This document shows, in pieces, positions 4,869 through 26,117 of a stretch of 64,000 bases of DNA. A model generated the notes under the pieces. It was not told where the DNA came from. It saw only the letters and a list, made by a program, of their open reading frames with translations, and ran no database searches. This stretch comes from Streptomyces abyssalis. Lineage in GTDB: Bacteria > Actinomycetota > Actinomycetes > Streptomycetales > Streptomycetaceae. The stretch is from assembly GCF_001751365.1 (NCBI RefSeq), contig NZ_LJGT01000036.1:372001-436000 (forward strand), in the 5' to 3' direction. Made by a program: the position numbers and the translations under genes. How positions within the stretch are numbered: position 1 is the stretch's first letter; each line of letters starts with the position of its first letter.

Positions 4869-6476
4869 TCAGGGCTGCGGCTCGGGCTTCTGCCGCCCGG
4901 GCGCGGTGTCGCCGTGACCACCCGTCAGTACGGGGGCTGCCGTCGCGGACCCCGTGTGGTCCGCCGCAGGGTCCGCGCCGCCCGCGTCCTTTGCGAGGCG
5001 GGTGCCGTCCGGACCGTCCCCGTCGTCCACGCGGGCGGTCGCGACGTCAGCGAAGGCCGCCGCGTCGCCCTCCGGGCCGCCGGACGCCAGCGCGCCCTCC
5101 GTGTCCGGGGAGAGCGACTTCTGGGCGCGTCCCATGGCGAGCAGCACGACGACCATCACCGCCGGACACAGAGCGAAGACGGTGAACGCTCCGGACGTGC
5201 CCAGTCCCGCGTCGAGCAGCACCCCGCCGAGCCAGGGGCCCACCATGGCGCCGACCTTGGCAACGGAGGACGCCCAGGCGGCGCCGTTGGCACGTATCGC
5301 CGTGGGATAGAAGGTGCCGGCGATGCTGGTGATGCCCCCGTGCCCGCCGTTGATGAACATCTTCGCGGAGATGATCACGCAGATGTACAGCACCGGCCCC
5401 GGGGCCCCGAGCCCCAGTGTCAGCATCGCGGCCGTGGCCATCAGCGGCATCCACAGGATGCTGCCCACGCCCTTGCGGTCCACGAACCTGCTGATCGCAA
5501 GCTGCGCGCAGGCGCCCGCGACGCTCGCCGCGGCGGCGATGAGAGCCGCGGAGCTGACGCTGAAGCCCATCCGCTCGTTGATGAGCGGCGTCCAGAAGAC
5601 CATGAAGTAGATCAGTGCGGACGAGCACACGTACACGGTCCACAGCAGCGGCGTGATGCGTGCGAGTGAGCCACGGAAGAGCGTGACCGGCGTGAACTTC
5701 CTGCCCGGGGCGGCCGGTTGTGGATCGCCGGGCACGAAGTGCGTTGCCGGCTCCACCGCTTGGCCGGGCCACAGCCGGGTGAGGATCTGCGCGATGCGCC
5801 GGTCGGCGTCCGGACGGCCGCGCTGTGCCAGGAACTTCACGGATTCGGGAAGGAAGAGCATCACCGGTACGAGTGCGAGCAGCGAGCAGACGCCGCCCGC
5901 CACGAAGACCGAACTCCAGCCGTAGCCGGGCACCATGAGGTTGGATACGGGCCCGCCGGCCGCGCCGCCGAGCGTGTAGCCGACCATGATCACCGAGATG
6001 GCGGTGACGCGGAACCGCTTCGGCGCGTACTCCGCGGTCAGCGCCCAGGACAGCGGCAGCACTCCGGCGAGGAAGAACCCCGAGACGAAGCGCAGCACGA
6101 AGAGATGTGCGTACGTGTCCGCCAGGGCGAAGGCCATCATGAAGACGCCGAAGCCCGCGACGCACATCGCTATGGAGGGCTTGCGGCCGATTCGGTCGCC
6201 CAGATACCCCATGCACAGACCGCCGACGAGCGTGCCGAAGAGACCGACCGTGCCGAGCGTGCCCAACTGGGTGTCGCTCAGGCCGAAGTCCCCTTTCAGG
6301 TACGTGGCGGTGAAGGAGAGGATCTGGAAGTCGAAGCCGTCGAGGAAGGTGATCAGGCAGCAGATCCCGAAGACCCTGTACCAGGCCCTGCGGCCCTGCT
6401 GTTTCTCGATGAGCGGTGCGAGTTCCACGACGGGCGGTGAGGCGGGCCCGTCCGGGGACGACGGTGCGGATGACAT
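4869..6476 (-). CDS. MFS transporter, aromatic acid:H+ symporter (AAHS)-like
   Basis: 535 aa with about 12 membrane helices. It shows the AAHS signature DGFD (res 46-49) in helix 1, the MFS motif A GYLGDRIGRKP (90-100) between helices 2 and 3, and the repeated half motif near VDRKG in the second half. The last 80 or so residues are a hydrophilic, Asp/Gly/Ala-rich tail with no membrane segments, longer than usual. AAHS members import benzoates, hydroxycinnamates, cis,cis-muconate or related acids with protons. It is the last gene of a leftward cluster after the aconitase-X subunits (13-nt gap from 6490), so it probably imports the acid that those enzymes break down. The exact substrate is unknown. 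Confidence 0.88.
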   Translation of the reverse strand: MSSAPSSPDGPASPPVVELAPLIEKQQGRRAWYRVFGICCLITFLDGFDFQILSFTATYLKGDFGLSDTQLGTLGTVGLFGTLVGGLCMGYLGDRIGRKPSIAMCVAGFGVFMMAFALADTYAHLFVLRFVSGFFLAGVLPLSWALTAEYAPKRFRVTAISVIMVGYTLGGAAGGPVSNLMVPGYGWSSVFVAGGVCSLLALVPVMLFLPESVKFLAQRGRPDADRRIAQILTRLWPGQAVEPATHFVPGDPQPAAPGRKFTPVTLFRGSLARITPLLWTVYVCSSALIYFMVFWTPLINERMGFSVSSAALIAAAASVAGACAQLAISRFVDRKGVGSILWMPLMATAAMLTLGLGAPGPVLYICVIISAKMFINGGHGGITSIAGTFYPTAIRANGAAWASSVAKVGAMVGPWLGGVLLDAGLGTSGAFTVFALCPAVMVVVLLAMGRAQKSLSPDTEGALASGGPEGDAAAFADVATARVDDGDGPDGTRLAKDAGGADPAADHTGSATAAPVLTGGHGDTAPGRQKPEPQP

Positions 6477-6489
6477 GGGAAGCTCCTCG

Positions 6490-7002
6490 TCATTGAGGGT
6501 GTGCCGGGTGCGCGGGACGGACGGTGACCAGGCCGCGCCCGTCGCCGGCGTCGACGCGGACGCGGTCGCCGGTGCGGATCACGGTGAGCGGGTCCCGGTC
6601 CAGCGCGGTGACGGCGGGGACGCGGGTGACGACCGCCCCGAGGGCGGCCTTGGTGGTGGTCGTGACGTAGATCATCGCCAGCGGTGCGGTGCCGAGCAGG
6701 CGCGTCGACTGGAAGAACCCGGCCCAGCCCGAGGAGCCCTTGGCGCCGGGGAAGACGAGCACCTTGCCGGCGAACGACTGCCCGTACAGGGGGTGGCGGC
6801 GTTCGATGATCACGCCGCGTGCGGGGTCGATGCCGCCCCAGCCGGAGATCGTCGCCTGCGAGACGAGAGCCTCGCCCTCGGCCGTGCCGGGGACGACGGT
6901 CCTGCCGTGCAACTCGACCACGGCGTGAGGGTGTCGGCCCGTCTCAGGGGGCGACGGTGACGGGGCGGGGGCGCCTGCCGCGGCCGTCCGGCGCGTGCTC
7001 AT
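6490..7002 (-). CDS. Aconitase X swivel domain subunit (DUF126)
   Basis: 170 aa. After about 25 variable residues, the DUF126 swivel domain runs to the end: GRTVVPGTAEGEALVSQATISGWGG, then PLYGQSFAGKVLVFPGAKGSSGWAG and ALDRDPLTVIRTGDRVRVD. The G-S-S-G motif is characteristic of the aconitase swivel fold. In bacteria this small chain pairs with the DUF521 catalytic chain to make an aconitase X dehydratase, either fused or as adjacent genes. Here the ATG at 7002 overlaps the stop of the large subunit (ATGA), so translation is coupled. Known aconitase X activities are cis-3-hydroxy-L-proline dehydration in bacteria and phosphomevalonate dehydration in archaea. The substrate here is undetermined. 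Confidence 0.9.
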   Translation of the reverse strand: MSTRRTAAAGAPAPSPSPPETGRHPHAVVELHGRTVVPGTAEGEALVSQATISGWGGIDPARGVIIERRHPLYGQSFAGKVLVFPGAKGSSGWAGFFQSTRLLGTAPLAMIYVTTTTKAALGAVVTRVPAVTALDRDPLTVIRTGDRVRVDAGDGRGLVTVRPAHPAHPQ

Positions 7003-8294
7003 CGCAGCTCTCCCTTCCAGCGGCCGGTGACGGCCGCGGAGATGCAGTCCTGGAGCGTGCCGAACCAGGCCTCGATGCCGAGGATCGCGGGCAGGTAGTG
7101 CGCCTGCTTCGCCGAGTCGGTGGCGAAGACCCTGGTGCCGGGCGGTGCGGAGCGGGACATGGCGGGGCAGGAGTCGGTCAGGACGCGGGCTCCGGCCCGC
7201 TCGATCGTGCCCGTCCATCCGTTGCGGTCGGCGGTGGTGCGCAGGGCTCTGGGCACCATCAGCCACAGCTGCGTCCCGGAGTGCAGGCGGCGGCCTTCGA
7301 GAAGGTGCGCGGTCTCCCGTACCTGGTCGAGGGAGGCGTGCGGGCAGCCGAGCAGCACGAAGTCGACATCGGCTCGCTCACCCTGGGAGTTGAGGTCCTC
7401 GTAGACGCCGCGGCGCTCGCGCTCGCCGTACGGCACCGCCTCCGGCGGCGCGGCCCCGGCCCCGGTCCCGTTCCCGAACGCGGCCTGTGTGGTGGGCGCT
7501 TCGGGGGTTATGCCGGGCAGGTGGTAGATCTCCACTCCCCCGGACGATGCCGCCGCAGCGCCGAAGTGCTTCAGGTCGAGCAGGTCGGGCTGCCTCAACT
7601 CGCCGGTCACGACCGGGCGTTCGTCCTGGACGAGACCGCCCGCGAAGTAGCCGAGCATGCCCCACTCCAGCGGTCCGTCGACGGGCGTGCGTGCCTCGAT
7701 GAGATGGGTGCCGCGGCGGTTGGCGGCGTGGTGGTTGCCCCAGCAGGGGATGCGGCCGGTCAGCGACGCCGCGCCGGTGGACGCGGTGCCCTCGCAGTTC
7801 GTACGGGCGCCGAGCACGGAGTTGGCGTACACCACCGCGGAGGACTCCATCCACGCGACGTGCTCGCCGCGTACGGGGATGTTGCCGACCTGGTAAGGCG
7901 TGCACGTCGCGAGGATGTTGACGCCCTTGCGGCCGTAGAAGGACTCCGCGTCGCTCTGCAGCTCGATCATTTCCTTCGGGTACGGGGCGATGCCCTCGGA
8001 GTCCGGGCCGAAGGACTGCTGGAGCTGGCACGTGGGCACGCGCATGGCGGGAATACGCAGATCCTCGTCGCTGTCCAGGTTGATCACGGCGTACGCCTTG
8101 TCCCAGCCGCCCTCGCGCACGAGCCGGGCCTTCACGGGCGAGGGCTGGGTCATCGTCCCGGCGACGTTGCGGACGTCGCAGAGCCGTTCGGCGTCGAGCG
8201 CGCGGCCGTAGCGGACGAGGAGGTCCATCGCCGCCGCGGTCGCGGGGCCCTCGGCGCCGTCCAGCATGGCCTTGTCGGAGTCGGTGAGCAGCAT
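6999..8294 (-). CDS. Aconitase X catalytic subunit (DUF521)
   Basis: 431 aa, starting MLLTDSDKAMLDG, the usual N-terminus of aconitase X. Conserved elements include SFGPDSEGIAPYP, the cluster region ILATCTPYQVGN (C131), GARTNCEGTAS (C167), LLGCPHASLDQ (C317) and LTDSCPAM (C376). Aconitase X binds an Fe-S cluster through three such cysteines and dehydrates a small hydroxy acid or hydroxyproline. The start overlaps the stop of the IlvD/Edd dehydratase by one nucleotide (TGATG) and its stop overlaps the DUF126 start, so the three are translationally coupled. The frame is open far upstream to 9572, but that extension is antisense-type noise inside the ilvD-like gene. The substrate is unknown. Confidence 0.9.
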   Translation of the reverse strand: MLLTDSDKAMLDGAEGPATAAAMDLLVRYGRALDAERLCDVRNVAGTMTQPSPVKARLVREGGWDKAYAVINLDSDEDLRIPAMRVPTCQLQQSFGPDSEGIAPYPKEMIELQSDAESFYGRKGVNILATCTPYQVGNIPVRGEHVAWMESSAVVYANSVLGARTNCEGTASTGAASLTGRIPCWGNHHAANRRGTHLIEARTPVDGPLEWGMLGYFAGGLVQDERPVVTGELRQPDLLDLKHFGAAAASSGGVEIYHLPGITPEAPTTQAAFGNGTGAGAAPPEAVPYGERERRGVYEDLNSQGERADVDFVLLGCPHASLDQVRETAHLLEGRRLHSGTQLWLMVPRALRTTADRNGWTGTIERAGARVLTDSCPAMSRSAPPGTRVFATDSAKQAHYLPAILGIEAWFGTLQDCISAAVTGRWKGELR

Positions 8295-10003
8295 CAGCGG
8301 TGGGCTCCTCGTGTGCGGGGTGAGAGGACCGCTCCCTCCTGCAGGGGGCGTACGGTGCGCCGGTAGACCGAGAGCCAGCCGCGCGCCGCCGTGCCGGCTT
8401 GGGAGGGCTCCTGCGTCCGTGTCTCCAACTCCTCCCGGCGCCGGGCGAGTTCGTCGTCCGGGACGAGGAGGTCGGCGCGGCGCGAGGTGAGGTCGACCGT
8501 GATGGTGTCTCCGTCGCGTACGAGTGCCAGCGGCCCTCCGTCGGCGGCCTCGGGCGACACCTCGCCGACGACGACGCCCTTGTTGACCAGACCGGACAGC
8601 TGCCCGTCGGTGACCACGGCCACCTGCCCCGTCAAACCCGCCCCGTCGAGGGCGAAGACAGGGCGGGACGCCATGCCCATGCCGGGCGTGCCCTTGGGGC
8701 CGAGGCCGCGGAGCACCAGCACGTCTCCGGCCGCGACTGCGCCCTCGCGCAGCCCGTCGAGGGCCGCGTGCGGGTCCTCGTAGACCCTGGCCGGTCCGGT
8801 GAAGGACGTCTCGCGCTGTTCGTCGACGGCGAGTTTGACGATGCCGGTCGCGGGGGCGAGGCTGCCGCGCACGAGGACGATGGTGGGCCGCCGTCCGTGC
8901 GGCTTGTCCGCGGGGCGGATCACCCGGCCGTCGGGGTGCGGCGCCCCGGCCAGGTTCTCGCCGAGAGTGCGCCCGGTCACCGTCCCCGCGCTCGTGTGCA
9001 GCAGCCCGCCGAGGCCGCGCATCACGCACGCCGCGCCGCCTGCCGCGTCGAACTCCTCTATGGAGTGGGGTCCGTTGGGGCGTACGGCGGCCAGCAGCGG
9101 GACGCTGTCGGCGAGTTGCTCGTACAGGCCGTAGACGTCGATGCCGGACTCGGCCTCCTCGGCGATCGCCTGCAGGTGCTTCACCGAGTTGACGGAGGCG
9201 CTGACCGACAGCATCAGCGTGACCGCGTTCTCGAATGCCGGGGGTGTGAGCACGTCGCGCGGGCGCAGATCCTCGTGCACGAGAGCGACGGCCCGGCTCG
9301 CGGCGGCACGCACGTCGTCCCGCATCTTCGCGCTCTCGGCGAGCACGGGAGTCGAACCCGGCAGTGCCATGCCGAGGGCCTCGCAGGCCATGTGCATGGA
9401 GTTGGCGGTGCCCATGCCCGCGCACACCCCGGGGCCTGCGACGGCGGTCTCGCTCATGCCGGTCAGCTCCTCCAGGGAGAGCCGTCCCTGCGCGTGGTGG
9501 CCGGCGCCGAGGAAGACGTCCTCGATGTCGCAGTGCCTGCCGCGGTAGGTGCCGCACGCCTGGTAGCCGCAACCGGCCATGACCGTCGGGAGGTTGATGC
9601 GGGCGGCGGCCATCAGCTGGCCCGGCGCGGTCTTGTCGCAGGAGGCCAGGCAGATCATCCCGTCAAGCTGTGCGCCCTCCACCGCGGCCTCGATGTCGTG
9701 GCTGATCAGGTCGCGTGCGGAGAGGATGTAGCCGCCGCGTCCTCCGGCGCTGTGGATGAAGTCGCTGGGTGCGACGGTGCGGATCTCGAAGCCCAGGCCG
9801 CCCGCTTCGTCGACCGCCTCCTTCGCCGCCCGGGCGACCGCGTCCAGGTGGCTGTAGCAAGTGGCCAGCGAGGACGAGGAGTTGACGATCGCGATCTTCG
9901 GCTTGGCCATGTCCTCGTCGGTGAGGCCGAGGGCGCGCCACTGTGCCCGGCGTACGGCCCACGGGGATGTGCCCGGCCGGTAGTTGCTGCGCAGTTCCGT
10001 CAT
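8294..10003 (-). CDS. IlvD/Edd family dehydratase
   Basis: 569 aa, typical for dihydroxyacid / sugar-acid dehydratases. The three Fe-S cysteine motifs are present: CYSHLD (C49), SCDKTAPG (C122) and GVCAGMGTANSM (C194), followed by the PGSTPVLAES block. C-terminally it keeps GLGPKGTPGMGMAS and TDGQLSG, the Mg2+/substrate region. The family removes water from dihydroxyacids (IlvD), 6-phosphogluconate (Edd) or free aldonic acids. The context with aconitase X and an acid permease points to a catabolic acid dehydratase rather than isoleucine/valine biosynthesis. The ATG at 10003 gives the conserved N-terminus MTELRSNY. The upstream open frame is a degenerate tandem repeat (10025-10096) and is not treated as coding. 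Confidence 0.92.
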   Translation of the reverse strand: MTELRSNYRPGTSPWAVRRAQWRALGLTDEDMAKPKIAIVNSSSSLATCYSHLDAVARAAKEAVDEAGGLGFEIRTVAPSDFIHSAGGRGGYILSARDLISHDIEAAVEGAQLDGMICLASCDKTAPGQLMAAARINLPTVMAGCGYQACGTYRGRHCDIEDVFLGAGHHAQGRLSLEELTGMSETAVAGPGVCAGMGTANSMHMACEALGMALPGSTPVLAESAKMRDDVRAAASRAVALVHEDLRPRDVLTPPAFENAVTLMLSVSASVNSVKHLQAIAEEAESGIDVYGLYEQLADSVPLLAAVRPNGPHSIEEFDAAGGAACVMRGLGGLLHTSAGTVTGRTLGENLAGAPHPDGRVIRPADKPHGRRPTIVLVRGSLAPATGIVKLAVDEQRETSFTGPARVYEDPHAALDGLREGAVAAGDVLVLRGLGPKGTPGMGMASRPVFALDGAGLTGQVAVVTDGQLSGLVNKGVVVGEVSPEAADGGPLALVRDGDTITVDLTSRRADLLVPDDELARRREELETRTQEPSQAGTAARGWLSVYRRTVRPLQEGAVLSPRTRGAHR

Positions 10004-10024
10004 GGCCTGCTCCTGCTCCTCGGT

Positions 10025-10096
10025 CCTCTTGCCTCTGGTCTGCCTCTTGCCTCTGGTCTGCATCGGGCTTCTGGTCCGCCTCGGGCCTCTGGGCGT
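10025..10096. repeat. Four tandem copies of an 18-bp unit between the oxidoreductase and dehydratase genes
   Basis: CCTCTTGCCTCTGGTCTG occurs twice identically (10025-10042, 10043-10060) and is followed by two diverged copies (10061-10078, 10079-10096). It fills most of the 124-nt gap between the FAD oxidoreductase and the ilvD-like start. On the minus strand it can be read as a TRGKRQ-type peptide, but a dehydratase N-terminus of that kind is not expected. Confidence 0.8.
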
Positions 10097-10127
10097 CCTC
10101 TGCCGGCCGTCGCGGCCTGGCCGCCGG

Positions 10128-11420
10128 TCAGCCGTCGAGGTTGGCCTTGAGCCGTTCGCGCAGTGCGGGGACCTCGATGTCGTGCACGCTGCCGTCACCT
10201 CCCGCGAGGTCGAGGGCATGTGCCGCCCCGGCGCCCATCGCGGCGCACGGGCCCATCACCCGGACGCTGGAGAGGGCGGCTGCGTCGCCGTCGGCGCAGC
10301 GGCCCGCGGCGACGAGGTTGTCGGCGTCCGGGGAGAGCATCGAGCGCAGCGGCACGTAGTGCAGGTGGTCGGCGTCGAACATCTCCCACACGTAGCCCTC
10401 GGCGCGGTCGTGCAGTTCGATCGGCCACGCCGTACGGGCGACGGAGTCGGGGAAACGGGTGCCGGCGCGCACCTCGTCGAGGGTGAGCGCGTGCACGCCC
10501 TTGATCCAGCGGGTCTGACGGCGGCCCGGCAGCCCGTAGGAGCGCACCCGCGCCCTCCCGAACGCCTTGGGATATTCGGCGCGCAGGAACTCGACTACGA
10601 GGTCGGCCTGTTCGCGTCCTTCGAGCTGGGCCTGCGCGGCGCGTACGGGATCGAGCGGCGCTTCGACGTGGGTCATGTTCATCACGGCCGTGTTCCGGCC
10701 GGGGAAGAAGAAGGCGAGGCCGTCCCCGCGCAGCAGCCCGTACTCGCCGGCCTTGCGGGCGACGTGCTCGGCGAGTTCCTCACGTCCGGGCTGGTGCGTC
10801 TCGTCCAGGTGCTCCAGCACGATCTGCTGCGAGCCGTAGATGGTGCGCTCGGGGACCCGGCAGGGCAGTCCCGCCTCCCATGCGAGCGCGGCGTCGCCGG
10901 TCGCGTCGACGAAGCCGGGTGCCGTGACGCGGACGTCGCCGAAGCGGGTCGCGAAGGTGACGGTCCCGATGCGGCGCCCGGCGCGTTCGACGCCGGTGAT
11001 GGAGGCGCCGAGGACGACGCGTATGCCCAGTTCGCGGATGCGCCGCTCGACCCACCGTCCGAGAGCCACTTCGTCATAACTGACGGTGATGGTGTGCCCG
11101 CGGTTGAAGTGCAGGTCGTCGCTCGCGCCGAGGCTGTCGAAGATGTCGTCGAACATGCCGTGGGTGAGCTGTCGGTAGCCGGGTGCGTTGCCGAACACCC
11201 CGCAGAAGAGCCCGATGAGGGAGTTGACCATCTGACCGCCGAGCACGGGCAGGCTGTCGACCAGCACGACGTCGCGTCCCAGCCGGGCCGACTCGATCGC
11301 CGCGGACACCCCGGAGACGCCCGCCCCCACCACGCACACGTCCGCGTCCAGGGCGTGGGCCGCGGGGCCGGGCGCCTTGGTGACGGTGCGCAGGGTGAGT
11401 TCGGACAGCGCGTGGGGCAT
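10128..11420 (-). CDS. FAD-dependent oxidoreductase (FAD_oxidored, PF12831-like)
   Basis: 430 aa. The N-terminal dinucleotide-binding motif VCVVGAGVSGVSAAIESARLG (res 28-48) is followed by a second conserved motif GFVDATGDAALAWEAG and a C-terminal AGRCADGDAAALSSVRVMGPC FAD-contact block. This is the pattern of PF12831 proteins, which usually oxidise or reduce small organic acids or sugars and whose substrates are mostly unknown. The start MPHALSEL is chosen because the upstream open frame lacks a ribosome binding site. It is the first gene of the leftward catabolic cluster (oxidoreductase, dehydratase, aconitase X pair, permease), all on one strand. It could oxidise the imported acid before dehydration, but the order of reactions is inference. 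Confidence 0.85.
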   Translation of the reverse strand: MPHALSELTLRTVTKAPGPAAHALDADVCVVGAGVSGVSAAIESARLGRDVVLVDSLPVLGGQMVNSLIGLFCGVFGNAPGYRQLTHGMFDDIFDSLGASDDLHFNRGHTITVSYDEVALGRWVERRIRELGIRVVLGASITGVERAGRRIGTVTFATRFGDVRVTAPGFVDATGDAALAWEAGLPCRVPERTIYGSQQIVLEHLDETHQPGREELAEHVARKAGEYGLLRGDGLAFFFPGRNTAVMNMTHVEAPLDPVRAAQAQLEGREQADLVVEFLRAEYPKAFGRARVRSYGLPGRRQTRWIKGVHALTLDEVRAGTRFPDSVARTAWPIELHDRAEGYVWEMFDADHLHYVPLRSMLSPDADNLVAAGRCADGDAAALSSVRVMGPCAAMGAGAAHALDLAGGDGSVHDIEVPALRERLKANLDG

Positions 11421-11605: not shown

Positions 11606-12562
11606 TCACGGCGCCGCCTCGGCCGCGGCCCGCGCCACCAGACCGCGCAGCCAGACGTTCGCCGGGTCCTTGTCGTAGACCGTGTCCCACCACAGGAGTT
11701 CGTCGATCTCGTCGAGCGGGACGGGCCACTCCACGGCCCGCACTCCCCGCTCGGCCGGCAGCCGGGCCGCGAGACGCGCGGGGTACAGCGCCACGCGGCG
11801 CGTGCCGGCGATGAAGTCGGGCACGGCCCGGTAGCTCTCCACCCGTACGGCGATCCGCGGGCGTATGCCGAGCGCCGTCAGCTGCCGGGTCGCCGGGGAT
11901 GCGGAGGGATAGCCCGCGTCCCGGTGGTAGGGCACCACCCACGGCAGCGGCGTCAGGTCCGCCGGCCCGAAGGACTCCGCCTCGCACAGCGGATGGTCCG
12001 CCGAGAGGAGGCACATCCAGCGGTCCCTGAAGAGCGGCTGCGAGCTGACCGGCGTACGGAAGTGACCCAGCCGCGGGGAGACCATCCCGTCGACGAGCCT
12101 GATGGTCTCGACGATGTCGCCGCCGATCGTCTCCCGTACGAGCCGCATGTGCAGCGCCGCCCGTGGCGCCTCGCGGGCCAGCAGCCGCGAGAGCCGGTCG
12201 CCGAGCACGGTCGCCGGATAGTCGGACATCAGCAGCGTGAACTCGCGCCGGGAGTCGGCCGGTTCGAAGGCGCTGCCGGTGGCGAAGAGGCGTTCGGTGG
12301 CGGCGCAGACCGTCTCCACCTGCTCGGTCAGCTGCGTGGCGAGCGGGGTGAGGACGTAGGCGCCGCCCGTACGCAGCAGCAGCTCGTCCCCGAAGTGCCG
12401 GCGAAGCCGCGACAGCGAGGCGCTGACGGCGGGCTGGGACACCCCGAGTCGCTTCGCAGCCCGGGTGACGTTGCGCTCCCGGAACAGCTCGCGCAGTGTG
12501 ACCAGGAGATTCAGGTCGAGATTGGCGAGGTGGGCGGGCGTGCGCTCGGGCGGGGTGGCCAT
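11606..12562 (-). CDS. LysR family transcriptional regulator
   Basis: 318 aa. The N-terminal winged helix (LDLNLLVTLRELFRERNVTRAAKRLGVSQPAVSASLSRLRR, res 15-55, cited in pieces: NVTRAAKRLGVSQPAVS at 31-47) is a standard LysR DNA-binding domain. The C-terminal two-lobe periplasmic-binding-like domain binds the inducer. The start at 12562 (MATPPERTP) begins just before the conserved DLNLL, and the frame upstream to 12703 has no supporting signal. It sits directly before the FAD oxidoreductase gene (185-nt gap) on the same strand and divergent from an IclR regulator, so it probably activates the acid-catabolism cluster. GGAAGT-containing sequences occur both near its own start and near 11510, but no operator can be assigned with confidence. 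Confidence 0.9.
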   Translation of the reverse strand: MATPPERTPAHLANLDLNLLVTLRELFRERNVTRAAKRLGVSQPAVSASLSRLRRHFGDELLLRTGGAYVLTPLATQLTEQVETVCAATERLFATGSAFEPADSRREFTLLMSDYPATVLGDRLSRLLAREAPRAALHMRLVRETIGGDIVETIRLVDGMVSPRLGHFRTPVSSQPLFRDRWMCLLSADHPLCEAESFGPADLTPLPWVVPYHRDAGYPSASPATRQLTALGIRPRIAVRVESYRAVPDFIAGTRRVALYPARLAARLPAERGVRAVEWPVPLDEIDELLWWDTVYDKDPANVWLRGLVARAAAEAAP

Positions 12563-12708: not shown

Positions 12709-12737
12709 TTGACGGATGGCGTCCGCCTGTCTAGCTT
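12709..12737 (+). promoter_or_regulatory. Sigma-70-like promoter for the IclR gene
   Basis: TTGACG (12709-12714), a 17-bp spacer and TAGCTT (12732-12737) match the vegetative (HrdB-type) consensus well. This would start transcription about 35-40 nt before the IclR ATG at 12782, which has GAAGGAG as ribosome binding site. Predicted from sequence only. Confidence 0.6.
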
Positions 12738-12781
12738 TCGCCGCGGGACGGCCCGTCCGATTCGTCCGAAGGAGAGCCACC

Positions 12782-13693
12782 ATGCGCGAGGGGAACCGGG
12801 CGGCGGCGCACAGCGGCACCGGCACCGGCACCGGTTCGGTGACGGGCAGAGCGCTGCGCGTGCTGGAGGCCTTCACGCCCTCCGCTCCGGTGCTCACGCT
12901 CACCGAGATCTCCCGCCGCAGCGGACTGCCGCTCACCACGGCGCACCGCCTCGTGAGCGAGCTGGCCGACTGGGGCGCACTCGAACGCGACCCGGAGCGG
13001 GGTTACCGCATCGGCCTGCGCCTGTGGGAGATCGCGGCGCTCGCCCCGCGCGGCCTGGGCCTGCGCGAGGTCGCACTCCCCCACCTGTCGGACCTCGCGC
13101 GCGTCACCGGCGAAAACGTGCAGCTGGCGGTGCGCGAGGACCTGTCCGTGGTGTACGTGGAGAGGCTCGCGGGATGCGCTTCGGTGCCCGTTCTCACACG
13201 CGTCGGCGGTCGTTTCGCGCTCACTCCGACCAGCGTCGGACGCGTACTGCTCGCCCACGCGCCCGCGGACGTGCAGGAGCGCGCGCTGGCGCAGCGGCAG
13301 CGGAGCTACACCGAGCGGACCGAGTGCGATCCCGTACGGCTGCGCCAGGCGCTCGCGGAAGTCCGGCAGACCGGCGTCGCCGTGTGCGAGCGGCAGGTGA
13401 CGATGGACAGCGTGTCCGTTGCCGCTCCGGTGCACGGTCCGGGCAACGGGCCGGGGAACGAAGTCGTCGCGGCGGTCTCGGTCGTCGCCCACGTGGAGAC
13501 CGTCCAGGCCCACACGCTGGTGCCGCTCGTCCAGGTCGCCGCCTCCGGCATCTCGCGCGCGCTCGGCGCGCCGGCACCCGGTTCCCGCAGCGGCTACGGG
13601 GGCTCCGGCAGGTCGCGCAGCCGTACGGACAGGCAGGTCACGCAGCCCTCCAGCTTCTCGAACTCGCCGATGTCCACCGGGACGGGCTCATAG
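12782..13693 (+). CDS. IclR family transcriptional regulator
   Basis: 303 aa from the ATG at 12782 (GAAGGAGAGCCACC upstream). The N-terminal winged helix spans about res 20-80, with LTLTEISRRSGLPLTTAHRL at 38-57 as the HTH. The effector domain follows with ENVQLAVREDLSVVYVERL, GRVLLAHAP and CERQVTMDSVSVAAPV, all typical IclR blocks. IclR proteins respond to aromatic or short carboxylic acids. Together with the neighbouring LysR, AAHS permease and dehydratases this suggests dual control of acid catabolism. The last roughly 35 residues are Gly/Ser/Arg-rich and lie antisense to the 3' end of the dimethylargininase gene (100-bp tail-to-tail overlap), so they may be a recent read-through extension. 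Confidence 0.9.
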   Translation: MREGNRAAAHSGTGTGTGSVTGRALRVLEAFTPSAPVLTLTEISRRSGLPLTTAHRLVSELADWGALERDPERGYRIGLRLWEIAALAPRGLGLREVALPHLSDLARVTGENVQLAVREDLSVVYVERLAGCASVPVLTRVGGRFALTPTSVGRVLLAHAPADVQERALAQRQRSYTERTECDPVRLRQALAEVRQTGVAVCERQVTMDSVSVAAPVHGPGNGPGNEVVAAVSVVAHVETVQAHTLVPLVQVAASGISRALGAPAPGSRSGYGGSGRSRSRTDRQVTQPSSFSNSPMSTGTGS

Positions 13694-14382
13694 CCGAGCC
13701 CGGCGAGCAGCTCCGCGCTGCGGGGCGCTCCGGAAGCCATCAGGAGGCGGTTCCCGCCGAGGAGCACGACGTGGGCGCCGGCCTCCTCCGGCACCGCCCG
13801 GAAGCGGGGGAAGTACGACGGGTCGTCCACGAGCGGCGGATGGCCAATGACCGTGCCGTCCGGCAGCGCGGTGACGGCGGATTTCAGATGGAGCACCCTG
13901 GTCACGGGCACGGGGACCACGTGTGCGCCCAACGGCTCGAAGGCGGCGCGCAGTTGGCGCACGCCCTCCTCGTTCGTACGTCCGCCGAGGCCCACGTACA
14001 CCGTTCCCCCGCTCTTGAGCACGTCCCCGCCGTCGAGCGTCCCCGGCGGTTCCACGCGGAGGACGGCGCAGCCCAGGGCGCGGACCGACTCCTCGACGGC
14101 TGCGGTCTCGGAACGCCGCGAAGCGGCCCCGGGCCGGCAGATCAGCGCCGTACCGCCCAGGACGACCACGGCGTCCTCCACGAACACGCTGTCCGGGCAG
14201 GTCTCTTCGGCCGGCACCTCGACCGTCCGCCAGCCGTTGTCCCGCAACGCCCGTACATAGCCGTCCCATTGGCGCACGGCGAGCGCCGGGTCGACCGGCA
14301 CCCGCTCCAGGTGGGTGATCAGACCCTCCGCGAGACGCGGGACGGGCGGGCGTACGAGGGCGAGGGCCTTCGCTTCGGGCAC
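13594..14382 (-). CDS. ddaH: Dimethylargininase (N(G),N(G)-dimethylarginine dimethylaminohydrolase)
   Basis: 262 aa from a GTG at 14382. Catalytic features of the amidinotransferase-fold family are visible: SVFVEDAVVV (acidic substrate-binding residues near 69-70), DGGDVL (118-121), LHLKSAV with the catalytic His165, and the C-terminal C-V-T-C-L-S-V-R-L with the nucleophile Cys250. The enzyme hydrolyses methylated arginines to citrulline and methylamines; close relatives are arginine deiminase-like. The start codon is a GTG giving a conserved-looking N-terminus (PEAKALALVRPP). It is tail-to-tail with the IclR gene, overlapping it by 100 bp, and follows a TetR gene on the same strand (55-nt gap). 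Confidence 0.88.
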   Translation of the reverse strand: MPEAKALALVRPPVPRLAEGLITHLERVPVDPALAVRQWDGYVRALRDNGWRTVEVPAEETCPDSVFVEDAVVVLGGTALICRPGAASRRSETAAVEESVRALGCAVLRVEPPGTLDGGDVLKSGGTVYVGLGGRTNEEGVRQLRAAFEPLGAHVVPVPVTRVLHLKSAVTALPDGTVIGHPPLVDDPSYFPRFRAVPEEAGAHVVLLGGNRLLMASGAPRSAELLAGLGYEPVPVDIGEFEKLEGCVTCLSVRLRDLPEPP

Positions 14383-14437
14383 GGGCTGACTCCGTATGTC
14401 GGCGGGCGGCGGGCGGTGATCGGCGGGCGCGGTCGCG

Positions 14438-15052
14438 CTACGGCGGGGTGATCGCACCCAGCAGCGCCCGCGCGCACAGGTCCCGCACGTGGTCGCGCGG
14501 CATGCGGGGCTCCTCCTCCAGCCACTCCAGGCAGACCGTCACCATGAAAGAGAGCCAGCCGCGCACGGCGATGCGGAGCGTGGGCAGGTCCGCGGCGATG
14601 CTCGCTGCTTCCGGGTCCGCGGCGAGCACGTCCAGGATCTGCCGTTCCTGTGCGGCGAGGCCTTGCCGGTAGACCTTGCGCACCGCCGGGTCTCCGGCCG
14701 CCTCGGCGCGGTGGAAGGCGCGGAAACCCTGCGCGTGGTTCTCGACGTATTCGAGGAAGCAGTCCAGGCCGCTGGTCAGCTGCTCCCGTACGGGCACGCC
14801 CGGATCGGCTGCGGTCAGGCGCAGCATCCGGCGGCTCTCCCGCTCGACGACGGCGGCGAAGAAGTCGTTCTTGGTCGGGAAGTAGTGGTACAGAAGCCCG
14901 CGCGAGACACCCGCGATCTCGGCGACGTGCTCGATCGAGACGTCCTCGTGGGGCCTGCTCGCGAACAGCCGCGCACCCACGGCAAGAAGCTCCTCGCGGC
15001 GCTCTTCGGTGCTCAGCCGGCGGCGCGTGCGCTCCCCCTGCTTCCCGCCCAT
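14438..15052 (-). CDS. TetR family transcriptional regulator
   Basis: 204 aa. The N-terminal TetR HTH is clear at about res 18-64: EERREELLAVGARLF, VSIEHVAEIAGVSRGLLYHYF and the P-T-K-N-D-F-F start of the next helix. The rest is the helical ligand-binding domain with a hydrophobic core (GWLSFMVTVCLEWL). It is divergent from the P450 gene at 15162 across 109 bp that contain a 7-bp inverted repeat (15123-15140). That is the standard arrangement for a local repressor of the P450, and similar TetR/CYP102 pairs exist in Streptomyces and Bacillus. The inducer is probably a fatty acid-like molecule by analogy. Confidence 0.92.
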   Translation of the reverse strand: MGGKQGERTRRRLSTEERREELLAVGARLFASRPHEDVSIEHVAEIAGVSRGLLYHYFPTKNDFFAAVVERESRRMLRLTAADPGVPVREQLTSGLDCFLEYVENHAQGFRAFHRAEAAGDPAVRKVYRQGLAAQERQILDVLAADPEAASIAADLPTLRIAVRGWLSFMVTVCLEWLEEEPRMPRDHVRDLCARALLGAITPP

Positions 15053-23719: not shown

Positions 23720-24651
23720 GCGAGGGTCACCTCCGCGGTGGCGTGCGCGTCCTCGCGGCAACTGGCCACCCGCAGCCGCACGCCGGTACCGCCCCCGGTG
23801 CCGCTGCCATGGCCACCGCGGCCGCCCGCCGGCCCGCCCTCCCCGCACGTCAGCAGCCGCTCGCCGCAGAAGACGGGCTTGCGCAGCCTGTACGACAGCG
23901 CGCGCACGCTCCGCCCGGGCACCTCGCGCCGTACCAGCTCCAGCATCGACAGCACCAGCAGGGGCCCGTGCACGACCAGCCCCGGATACCCCTCGGTGCC
24001 GGTGGTGTAGGGCTCGTCGTAGTGGATGCGGTGCGCGTTGGCGGTGAGGGCGCTGAAGCGGAAGAGCAGCGTGGGGTCGGTCCGCCACGGCCGCTGCCAG
24101 CCGGCGTCCGCCTCGGGCGCCGTCACGGTGTCCGGCACGAGCTCCGCCGGTACGGGCGCTCCGCCACCGCTGCGGTAGACCAGGTCCACCTCTTCCGTCA
24201 CGCACAGCGCGCCACCCTGCCGGTATTCGCTCCGTACAGTCACGAACAGCAGTCCGCCGCTCCGGCCCTCCTTGACCTCGGCTCCTCCGAGCGAGCTGGT
24301 CAGTTCGGCGTGAGTGCCGAGCGTCAGCGGTGCCCGCACATCGAGGCGGCCGCCCGCGAACATCCTCCTCCGCTGCGGCAGGGGCGGGAGGAAGTGCCCG
24401 TCGCGTGGATGCCCGTCGGCGCCGAGTTCGCTCTGCCGAGGCCAGTTCAGGAAGTGCAGCCAGTGCCACAGCGGGGGCAGCGGCTGCCCGGCGGCCGCCG
24501 CCGGGAACGGCAGTCCGAGCACGGCGGACAGCGCGGCTGACGGCCCCGGGTCGAGGGCGTCGGTGCTGTGCACCGGACCGGGCCGCCACGTACGGGCGAT
24601 GTCGCGGAGTGCATCTGTGCCGCCGGCGGCCGTCGGCTCGGACACTGCCAT
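23716..24651 (-). CDS. HTD2/mesaconyl-C4-CoA hydratase-like MaoC-fold protein
   Basis: 311 aa. An N-terminal FAS1-like dehydratase hotdog carries the family block PLPPLWHWLHFLNWPRQSELG and then HPRDGHFLPPLPQRRRMFAGG. The second hotdog contains the hydratase-like motif ANAHRIHYDEPYTTGTEGYPGLVVHGPL, with the catalytic Asp/His expected there. Characterised relatives hydrate mesaconyl-C4-CoA (3-hydroxypropionate cycle, C5-acid degradation), and the eukaryotic HTD2 dehydrates 3-hydroxyacyl thioesters. It overlaps the GntR/UTRA gene by 4 nt and is divergent from a CaiB/BaiF CoA-transferase, which is the expected partner for C5-dicarboxylate metabolism. Substrate identity is an inference. Confidence 0.85.
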   Translation of the reverse strand: MAVSEPTAAGGTDALRDIARTWRPGPVHSTDALDPGPSAALSAVLGLPFPAAAAGQPLPPLWHWLHFLNWPRQSELGADGHPRDGHFLPPLPQRRRMFAGGRLDVRAPLTLGTHAELTSSLGGAEVKEGRSGGLLFVTVRSEYRQGGALCVTEEVDLVYRSGGGAPVPAELVPDTVTAPEADAGWQRPWRTDPTLLFRFSALTANAHRIHYDEPYTTGTEGYPGLVVHGPLLVLSMLELVRREVPGRSVRALSYRLRKPVFCGERLLTCGEGGPAGGRGGHGSGTGGGTGVRLRVASCREDAHATAEVTLA

Positions 24652-24777
24652 CCCCTCGCTCTCGCGCTCCCGCCCTCAGGACACCGGCGGTTCCGGTACG
24701 TACAAAGCAGGGGCATTCTCTGGAGCGCACCGCCCAGCAGTCAACAAGAGCAGAAGTCTTCGCAGTTCACAACGGCA

Positions 24778-24807
24778 TTGACACGGCGCGTGAATTGGCC
24801 GTACAAA
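24778..24807 (+). promoter_or_regulatory. Sigma-70-like promoter of the CoA-transferase
   Basis: TTGACA (24778-24783), an 18-bp spacer and TACAAA (24802-24807) form a good vegetative promoter, about 120 nt before the CoA-transferase ATG. An inverted repeat overlaps its -10 box (see 24798-24821). Confidence 0.6.
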
Positions 24808-24821
24808 TCTGGGCGTACGGC
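24798..24821. promoter_or_regulatory. Inverted repeat GCCGTAC-N10-GTACGGC over the promoter
   Basis: Perfect 7-bp arms overlap the -10 region of the rightward promoter in the divergent hydratase / CoA-transferase region. It is a natural candidate site for the neighbouring GntR/UTRA repressor, although GntR sites are usually more closely spaced. Confidence 0.4.
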
Positions 24822-24926
24822 GGCGGACGAGCCGGACGGCGGGCGTACGGACCGGGGGCGGAGTGCCCGTCGGCGGGTACGGAAGACAACGGACCGGAAC
24901 GGAACGATCCGAACGGAGCGGAGCCC

Positions 24927-26117
24927 ATGACCGATGTCCGGCCGCTGGACGGCATCACGGTCGTCAGCCTCGAACAGGCCGTCGCCGCGCCCTTCGCCAC
25001 CCGCCAGCTCGCCGACCTCGGCGCCCGCGTCATCAAGGTCGAACGCCCCGGCGGCGGCGACTTCGCCCGCCGCTACGACACGACGGTGCACGGCAGCTCC
25101 AGCTATTTCGTATGGCTCAACCGCTCCAAGGAGTCCCTGAGCCTCGACGTCAAGGACGAGCGGGGGCGTGCCGTGCTGGACGAACTCCTCGCCCGCGCCG
25201 ATGTGTTCGTCAGCAATCTCGCTCCCGGCGCCGCGGGCAGGCTCGGTCTGTCGCCCGCCGAACTCACTGCCGCACATCCGCGCCTGATCCCCTGCACCGT
25301 CTCCGGTTACGGCACGAGCGGACCATGGGCGGACCGCAAGGCCTACGACCTGCTTGTGCAGTGCCAGACCGGTCTCGTCTCGCTCACGGGCACGGGCGGC
25401 GAGTCCGCGCGGGCCGGGGTGTCGGTCGCGGACATCGCAGCGGGCATGTACGCGTACAGCGGCGTCCTGACGGCCCTGTTCACCCGCGCGACCACAGGCG
25501 TGGCCCGACCCGTCGAGGTCTCCCTGTTCGAGGCGCTCGCCGAGTGGATGGGCCAGCCCGCCTACTACACGGCGCACACGGGCACGCAGCCGCCGCGCCT
25601 GGGCACCCAGCACCCGACCATCGCCCCGTACGGCGCGTACACCGCCGCCGACGGCAAGGACGTGCTCTTCTCCATCCAGAACGAGCGCGAATGGGCCGCA
25701 CTGTGCACGGAGTTCCTCCAGGACCCCGACCTGGCAGGCGATCCCCGTTTCGCCACCTCCCCGGCCCGCGTCGCGCACCGGGAGGAGCTCAACACCATCG
25801 TGGCGGAGCGCTTCGCGCGCTCGGAGTCCGAGGAGGTCATCGCGGTCCTCGACCGGATCGGCGTGGCCTGCGCGGGGGTCAACTCCGTCGCCGAGTTCCT
25901 CTCGCATCCGGTGCTCAGCGGGCGCGACCGCTGGCGCGAAGTGGCCGTTCCCGGCGGTGCGCACGTGCGGGCGCTGCTGCCGCCGGCGGACCTGGCCGGA
26001 ACCGCCGCCCGCATGGGCCCGGTTCCGGCTCCCGGCGAGCACACGGACGCGCTCCTCGGCGAACTCGGCCGCTCTCCGGAGCAGGTGGAGGCTCTGAGGG
26101 CGGACGGCGTCGTCTGA
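24927..26117 (+). CDS. CaiB/BaiF family CoA transferase (family III)
   Basis: 396 aa. Family III motifs are present: PLDGITVVSLEQAVAAPFATRQLADLGARVIKVERPGGGD (quoted in parts: ATRQLADLGARVIKVERP), WLNRSKESLSLDVK, FVSNLAPGAAGRLG and CTVSGYGTSGPWADRKAYDLL. In the active-site helix the sequence is EVSLFEALAEWMG, with Glu202 at or near the place where most family members have the catalytic Asp. The W-M-G variant resembles C4/C5-acid CoA-transferases such as mesaconyl-CoA C1-C4 transferase. The enzyme moves CoA between carboxylic acids. The ATG at 24927 follows GGAG at 24914-24917. It is divergent from the hydratase/GntR pair, and together they suggest a small C4/C5-dicarboxylate CoA module. Confidence 0.88.
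   Translation: MTDVRPLDGITVVSLEQAVAAPFATRQLADLGARVIKVERPGGGDFARRYDTTVHGSSSYFVWLNRSKESLSLDVKDERGRAVLDELLARADVFVSNLAPGAAGRLGLSPAELTAAHPRLIPCTVSGYGTSGPWADRKAYDLLVQCQTGLVSLTGTGGESARAGVSVADIAAGMYAYSGVLTALFTRATTGVARPVEVSLFEALAEWMGQPAYYTAHTGTQPPRLGTQHPTIAPYGAYTAADGKDVLFSIQNEREWAALCTEFLQDPDLAGDPRFATSPARVAHREELNTIVAERFARSESEEVIAVLDRIGVACAGVNSVAEFLSHPVLSGRDRWREVAVPGGAHVRALLPPADLAGTAARMGPVPAPGEHTDALLGELGRSPEQVEALRADGVV

Follow-up and report, generated by a model that had tools for sequence, protein, structure and literature searches.

A 64,000-nucleotide stretch of the Streptomyces abyssalis genome (assembly GCF_001751365.1, contig NZ_LJGT01000036.1, positions 372,001 to 436,000; hereafter, the window) carries a real and conserved operon whose products are core enzymes of acid processing: the large and small chains of aconitase X (AcnX-L and AcnX-S), an IlvD/Edd-type dehydratase (IlvD) and an FAD-dependent oxidoreductase of the PF12831 family (FADox), encoded together with an MFS importer. 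We propose, with a probability of about 0.5, that LysR controls this operon and that its products take up and break down a carboxylic acid lacking a basic amine. The substrate would be a non-amine beta-hydroxy or dihydroxy carboxylate, perhaps one with a ring or a hydrophobic group. In the proposed pathway, the MFS protein would import the acid, FADox would oxidize or desaturate it, and the two-chain AcnX, using a serine as its base, would dehydrate a beta-hydroxy acid (or hydrate a 2-enoate). IlvD enzymes in general convert 2,3-dihydroxy acids to 2-oxo acids, and the IlvD paralog, where present, would perform this reaction here and so feed central metabolism. The hydroxyl might, in some of the relatives, be supplied or unmasked by an oxygenase that depends on O2 (Rieske VanA_C, AibH2-like or TauD). 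The proposal does not fix the sequence of these enzymatic steps.

The protein families and the gene order were read directly from the DNA (Table 1). Transcribed from the minus strand, the genes run LysR, FADox, IlvD, AcnX-L, AcnX-S, MFS, and all five from the oxidoreductase through the AAHS-like permease lie on one strand, as the initial annotation had described. The 1-nt and 4-nt overlaps it had claimed for the dehydratase and the AcnX chains proved exact: the IlvD stop and the AcnX-L start have 1 nt in common (TGATG at 8294), and AcnX-L and AcnX-S overlap by 4 nt (ATGA, 6999-7002). The remaining gaps measure 13 nt between AcnX-S and MFS and 124 nt between FADox and IlvD. Domain matches and gene order thus bear out that two Fe-S dehydratases and an importer are encoded in one coherent operon; scans for promoters, terminators and inverted repeats upstream of the operon found none. 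The order from LysR to MFS is identical in the five nearest Streptomyces loci (L002-L005 and L060) and is therefore not a matter of chance. The nearest AcnX relatives are those of Streptomyces, at 90-94% identity, and the window holds the single AcnX match in the 6.6 Mb assembly of 41 contigs.

A scan for relatives of AcnX-L kept 79 loci, and the 63 with at least 45% identity (L002-L064) were used for counts. A gene was called present when a tblastn match with E ≤1e-15 over at least half of the query lay anywhere in the fetched stretch. Since AcnX similarity was the criterion for choosing these loci and many are closely related, the counts show linkage and not independent events; in addition, contig ends truncate some of them (L034 and L055 start close to such an end). 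Both AcnX chains were present in 63/63 loci, a PF12831-type flavoprotein lay near AcnX in 57 (47 close homologs and 10 of a diverged type), and IlvD accompanied AcnX in 44. Outside the Actinobacteria, Paroceanicella (L081) has the order LysR-IlvD-FADox-AcnXL-AcnXS, the core set is also found in Oceanicella, and a Burkholderia plasmid carries IlvD, AcnXL, AcnXS and FADox together. The set occurs without IlvD in an Acetobacteraceae metagenome-assembled genome (MAG), in a Clostridiales MAG (L062, a 12 kb contig with AcnX, FADox and an importer), and in a low-GC genome of the same class as the latter, which has AcnXL, AcnXS, a DctP-type importer gene and FADox. The AcnX-FADox core therefore spans Alpha- and Betaproteobacteria plus a clostridial class. 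AcnX is rare: of 374 genomes in the window's class, 14 have any AcnX, the window's own genome among them, and 8 of the 15 matches in those genomes, again counting the window's, have the residues of its clade. On the Clostridiales contig, FADox and one small chain are flanked by two AcnX large-chain genes (6759-11149 of that locus).

Both chains belong to the AcnX superfamily (PF04412, 356.6 bits against a cut-off of 31.5; PF01989, 84.4 bits against 27). According to the accessible portion of Watanabe 2021 (PMC8184944), AcnX enzymes remove an alpha-proton and release a beta-hydroxyl. In AtAcnX, the cis-3-hydroxy-L-proline (C3LHyp) dehydratase treated there, the nitrogen of proline is bound by Asp203 and Thr72 and its ring is contacted by Trp35 and Ile206; Ser70 serves as the base, and the carboxylate is held with the help of Ser293, Lys530 and Tyr534. 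In TkAcnX, a type-IIb mevalonate 5-phosphate dehydratase (7cnr/7cns), the cluster ligands are Cys110, Cys283 and Cys342, and the crystal held a [3Fe-4S] cluster that its authors took for a damaged [4Fe-4S] (PMC8184944).

Across the 30 aligned large chains of the window's own clade, we found that Cys273, Glu292, Ser293, the equivalent of Cys283, Cys508, Lys530 and Tyr534 are invariant, as are the three cluster cysteines of TkAcnX, and that position 294 is always Ser. Asp at position 203 occurs in none of the 30 (26 Ala and 4 others in one alignment); the loop around it is hard to align, and a second alignment places another residue there, again never Asp. Cys510 is Ala in 29 rows and Cys in the Clostridiales one. 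Among 66 small chains the serine base Ser70 is always kept, Cys71 is always Ser, Thr72 has become Gly (65) or Ala (1), and Gly73 has become Trp (64) or Tyr (2); this KGSSGW loop is specific to the clade, and position 35 is Trp (54) or Phe (12). The window enzyme thus resembles TkAcnX in its two chains, three cluster cysteines, Glu-Ser-Ser, Lys, Tyr and serine base, but has Ser/Gly/Trp for Thr63/Val64/Gly65, Trp or Phe instead of Leu at position 35, and an operon context of catabolic type. With AtAcnX it has in common the serine base, Glu-Ser, Lys, Tyr and, in most small chains, Trp35, whereas Asp203, Thr72 and Asn294 are not kept and Cys510 is mostly Ala. The phosphate-binding Asn53/Asn79 loop of TkAcnX aligned poorly with the window's clade, and no match was made there. 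Judged by its residues, the window AcnX appears to combine archaeal cluster ligands with neither known substrate signature, and it probably carries a [4Fe-4S] cluster. It fits the bacterial type-II classes IIc-IIf, which in the accessible portion of the same paper are likewise two-chain enzymes without the landmark residues of either known enzyme, have no known function, and are named as a group whose characterization would help (PMC8184944).

The AcnX-L model (mean pLDDT 89.5) is most similar to TkAcnX (7cnr_A; VIA Z 45.5, root-mean-square deviation (rmsd) 2.4, 384 aligned), followed by AtAcnX (7cnp_A; Z 39.4, rmsd 2.6, 403 aligned). A quick tree, in which long branches were flagged, placed the 26 rows used from the window's clade in a single group (SH-aLRT 100) and separated them from two others, one of them of C3LHyp type. 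The actinobacterial rows in which Asp203 and Asn294 are retained (L122-L125) fell with AtAcnX. These results bear on hydroxyproline catabolism, in which AcnX would act as a C3LHyp dehydratase. The common superfamily and the Trp or Phe at position 35 speak for such a role, as does the best named NCBIfam match of AcnX-L, NF051439 (C3LHyp dehydratase), though at 225 bits against a cut-off of 700. We consider it highly improbable, because both nitrogen-binding residues are absent from the clade, the cluster-cysteine pattern is that of TkAcnX, and the Asp203-keeping actinobacterial enzymes group elsewhere. The initial annotation had named an exact match to the C3LHyp-specific sites as the outcome that would overturn its own proposal, and these sites do not match (Asp203 in 0/30, Thr72 in 0/66). 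It had also noted that no proline racemase or ornithine cyclodeaminase-like gene is present; consistent with this, Pfam found neither domain, nor any other hydroxyproline-type gene, in the 20 window open reading frames (ORFs) scanned, the rest of the 64 kb and of the genome not having been searched. Its premise that the bacterial AcnX substrate is simply C3LHyp was not borne out, given the bacterial types IIc-IIf without known function in the portion of PMC8184944 cited above. A hydroxyproline pathway was accordingly rejected on the AcnX residues and the tree. As a separate observation, a third AcnX class (L065-L080 and L126) has Gly in place of the small-chain serine base in 11/11 aligned small chains, and its 13 aligned large chains have Asp-Thr-Gly for Glu-Ser-Ser and Ala for Cys.

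The second dehydratase is of a distinct clade too. The best model for the window IlvD is PRK00911 (503 bits), which is of the dihydroxyacid dehydratase (DHAD) type, and the protein stays below the cut-off of all eight NCBIfam models matched, including TIGR00110 for biosynthetic DHAD (466 and 465.8 bits, cut-off 618.15) and the sugar-acid models PRK13016 (313.2 of 882 bits) and PRK06131 (378.7 of 539 bits). We aligned 48 IlvD rows, including the window's and one (L085) from a locus without AcnX. Like DHAD (IlvD, 6ovt) and L-arabinonate dehydratase, they keep the first cluster cysteine (47/48, with one gap), the second and third, and the catalytic serine (48/48 each). Unlike both, they have Ser for the DHAD Trp (47/48), Ser for the DHAD Asn (46/48), Phe or Tyr after the first cluster Cys (47/48), and DGQ for DGR (47/48). 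These signatures suggest that the window IlvD belongs to a clade distinct from the canonical biosynthetic DHAD. A pathway for sugar acids was rejected, since IlvD lies far below the sugar-acid dehydratase models. The polyhydroxylated acid that the initial annotation favored as substrate stays one option, weakened by an IlvD nearer to DHAD than to the sugar-acid models and by clade-specific aromatic residues near the catalytic residues of both dehydratases.

We found no canonical ilvD in the assembly, which has two IlvD-family matches: one is the window's (465.8 bits), and the other, on contig C36 (447.3 bits), is a dehydratase of the L-arabinonate type; each of 30 other genomes drawn from the genus has one, at 750.9-797.4 bits. 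This pattern would suit an IlvD that serves as the strain's branched-chain biosynthetic dehydratase and sits in the operon by chance. Such a role is nonetheless quite improbable, as the clade accompanies AcnX and FADox in several phyla and lacks the DHAD signature residues, and a gap in the 41-contig assembly may hide the canonical gene. The apparent absence of ilvD may reflect such an assembly gap or a real loss.

The third core enzyme, FADox, matches PF12831 over model positions 1-416 of 416 (255.9 bits, cut-off 27), and its AlphaFold model (mean pLDDT 90.5) has a flavoprotein fold. The best VIA match was 3oz2 (Z 21.4, rmsd 4.3, 300 aligned), and many other flavoproteins scored Z 17-20. Among the matches listed there was no close solved relative (Foldseek TM ~0.5 or less; best VIA Z as above), and the reaction is therefore not readable from the fold.

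Around this core, importers and oxygenases are exchanged from one relative to another. The window MFS protein scored best against TIGR00895 (AAHS) among the 42 NCBIfam models matched, at 324.8 bits and below the cut-off of 418.55. Seven kinds of importer occur in relatives (AAHS, MHS, NMT1-type ABC, LIV-type ABC, TRAP, TctC and SSF). Over the 63 loci, an NMT1-type binding protein was found in 30, an AAHS-like MFS in 13 and an MHS-type MFS (at least 52% identity) in 10, and systems of the LIV-type ABC (L028, L055), TRAP (L081, L119, L058), TctC (L061) and SSF (L062) kinds were seen as well. A Rieske VanA_C protein with its reductase is present in 6 of the 63 loci, including that of the Acetobacteraceae MAG, and the Burkholderia operon (L082) has a TauD-type protein. 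In eight loci, seven of them actinobacterial and the other from Oceanicella (L012, L015, L017, L024, L033, L035, L058 and L064), we found a protein nearest to chain B of 6m1w (E 2.5e-80), the chain that by its length we judged to be AibH2; a second PF04909-type match accompanies it in seven and a Rieske ferredoxin in at least six. The AibH1H2G enzyme hydroxylates 2-aminoisobutyrate, as stated in the accessible part of PMC7782822. The AibH2-like protein thus lies near FADox and AcnX in relatives, but the window itself has no such gene. IlvD and the AibH2-like gene tend not to occur together (IlvD is present in one of the eight loci with the latter and in 43 of the 55 without; Fisher p 0.0006), but we place no weight on this, because the eight include several closely related loci and some stretches are truncated. 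In the two clostridial-class relatives, presumably anaerobes, AcnX, FADox and an importer were found with no oxygenase match. The common denominator of these contexts is a small organic acid and a flavoprotein-plus-dehydratase core.

A ring-bearing or hydrophobic substrate seems somewhat more likely than a plain sugar acid, because Trp or Tyr stands by the AcnX serine, Trp or Phe at position 35, and Phe or Tyr after the first IlvD cysteine. These aromatic residues in both active sites would suit an aryl- or alicyclic-substituted hydroxy acid of lignin type, such as an aryl-glycerate or a 3-aryl-3-hydroxypropionate. So would the AAHS-like importer with its sub-cut-off matches to PcaK and MhpT, and an IclR regulator beside the operon that is nearest to the PcaR/PcaU/PobR model, again below cut-off. 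Furthermore, the nearest solved relative of the Rieske neighbor is dicamba O-demethylase DdmC, and a Variovorax operon contains a FADox homolog with 44% identity together with a gene of the 3-hydroxyphenylpropionate-hydroxylase type, a VOC gene and one of the FAH family. However, no ring-cleavage domain was found in the 20 window ORFs scanned and none was recognized among the annotated neighbors in AcnX-bearing relatives, and the presumably anaerobic clostridial-class relatives have no oxygenase match. We therefore regard an aryl acid as possible, though on balance unlikely.

A small aliphatic polycarboxylate or branched hydroxy acid without a ring (of the hydroxycitrate, methylsuccinate or citramalate type) is rather doubtful as well. 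FADox would then act in the manner of tricarballylate and succinate dehydrogenases. TRAP, TctC and MHS importers are common for small di- and tricarboxylates, and all three occur in relatives. The DHAD-type model nearest to IlvD points the same way, as does a Cupriavidus plasmid on which genes for TctC and tartrate dehydrogenase are only a few kb away from a FADox-IlvD pair, and the AibH2-like neighbor resembles an enzyme of 2-aminoisobutyrate (PMC7782822, accessible part). Against this stand the AAHS-like importer of the window, the NMT1-type binding-protein matches in nearly half of the loci, and the clade-specific aromatic residues in both dehydratases.

Several observations weigh against a single operon for a non-amine, perhaps ring-bearing, hydroxy acid. 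IlvD has no match in 19 of the 63 loci and FADox none in 6, and FADox lies on the same strand as AcnX-L in 48 of its 57 loci, IlvD in 36 of its 44, so that the genes do not always form one operon. In 9 of the 10 FADox-bearing genomes among 367 alphaproteobacterial genomes searched, FADox occurs without AcnX in the fetched stretches, and it may thus have a role of its own. Moreover, the Cupriavidus FADox-IlvD pair is without AcnX. Given these cases and the unmatched IlvD loci, AcnX, IlvD and FADox may work in partly separate routes. A search of 350 genomes of Caballeronia's class found no FADox, which is uninformative, as the Burkholderia plasmid of that same class has one. The argument for a ring is one from residue identity. 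Finally, a sulfonate would likewise be compatible with the NMT1-type importers, with TauD and with SfbO, a relative of AibH2 that binds sulfonate.

In a broader form, we tentatively suggest, at somewhat less than even odds, that the clade represents a third AcnX function, in which an Fe-S enzyme dehydrates a non-amine beta-hydroxy acid that probably bears a ring. Together with the PF12831 flavoprotein it would be the core of an undescribed catabolic pathway, with unrelated O2-dependent oxygenases (Rieske, AibH2-like and TauD), the IlvD clade and importers of at least six families as interchangeable parts. Among the titles and abstract openings listed for open-licence PMC papers on AcnX/DUF521, DUF126/UPF0107, IlvD and PF12831, none describes an AcnX-IlvD-FAD cluster. 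Two AcnX functions are described in the papers as far as they were accessible; for the window's clade there are now a gene neighborhood that recurs, residue signatures, strains known by name, and solute-binding proteins open to a ligand screen. The natural substrates of four AibH2-related candidates could not be inferred from genomic context, according to the accessible part of PMC10811679. Were the substrate solved, it would bring a new Fe-S dehydratase activity, a function for this group of PF12831 flavoproteins, and a substrate lead for the AibH2-like oxygenases.

The regulators next to the operon suggest that the pathway is inducible. The initial annotation proposed control by both LysR and IclR, and this double control is doubtful: LysR has a match in 24 of the 63 relatives, but the part of IclR is questionable. 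In two relatives (L002 and L004) the Rieske pair lies beside IclR, between it and the dimethylargininase (DDAH) gene; neither the window nor L003 has this pair. When the genome was searched with the Rieske protein of L002, a single match of 36 bits came up. In the window the IclR and DDAH genes overlap tail to tail by 100 bases (13594-13693), and its IclR has the same odd C-terminal tail as that of L003. For these reasons, the window IclR is probably the leftover of a lost Rieske module, by a deletion that the window and L003 probably have in common.

Table 1. Genes of the operon and of its surroundings in the window
Feature	Position	Strand	Length (aa)	Basis or remark
MFS importer, AAHS-like	4869-6476	-	535	Pfam; best NCBIfam match TIGR00895, below cut-off
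AcnX small (swivel) chain (AcnX-S)	6490-7002	-	170	PF01989, E 4.8e-24
AcnX large chain (AcnX-L)	6999-8294	-	431	PF04412, E 1.8e-106
IlvD/Edd-type dehydratase	8294-10003	-	569	PF00920, E 3.1e-91
PF12831 FAD-dependent oxidoreductase (FADox)	10128-11420	-	430	Pfam, E 1.2e-75
LysR-family regulator	11606-12562	-		Pfam; codirectional with and upstream of FADox
IclR-family regulator	12716-13693	+		Pfam; divergent from the operon
Dimethylargininase (DDAH)	13594-14457	-		over its NCBIfam cut-off
P450	15138-16676			sub-cut-off pentalenene-oxygenase match
CoA-transferase family III	24330-26117			

Two further observations concern the surroundings of AcnX in relatives. In 10 loci (L007, L031, L040, L045 and L047-L052), AcnX has a protein of about 390 aa in its neighborhood, and the copy tested, from L047, had no Pfam or NCBIfam match. 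On a Cupriavidus plasmid (L083, 11980-17406), a more distant AcnX (39%) is accompanied by TctC, by a beta-propeller of the lactonase type and by two RraA-type aldolases, a set that would constitute a different pathway.

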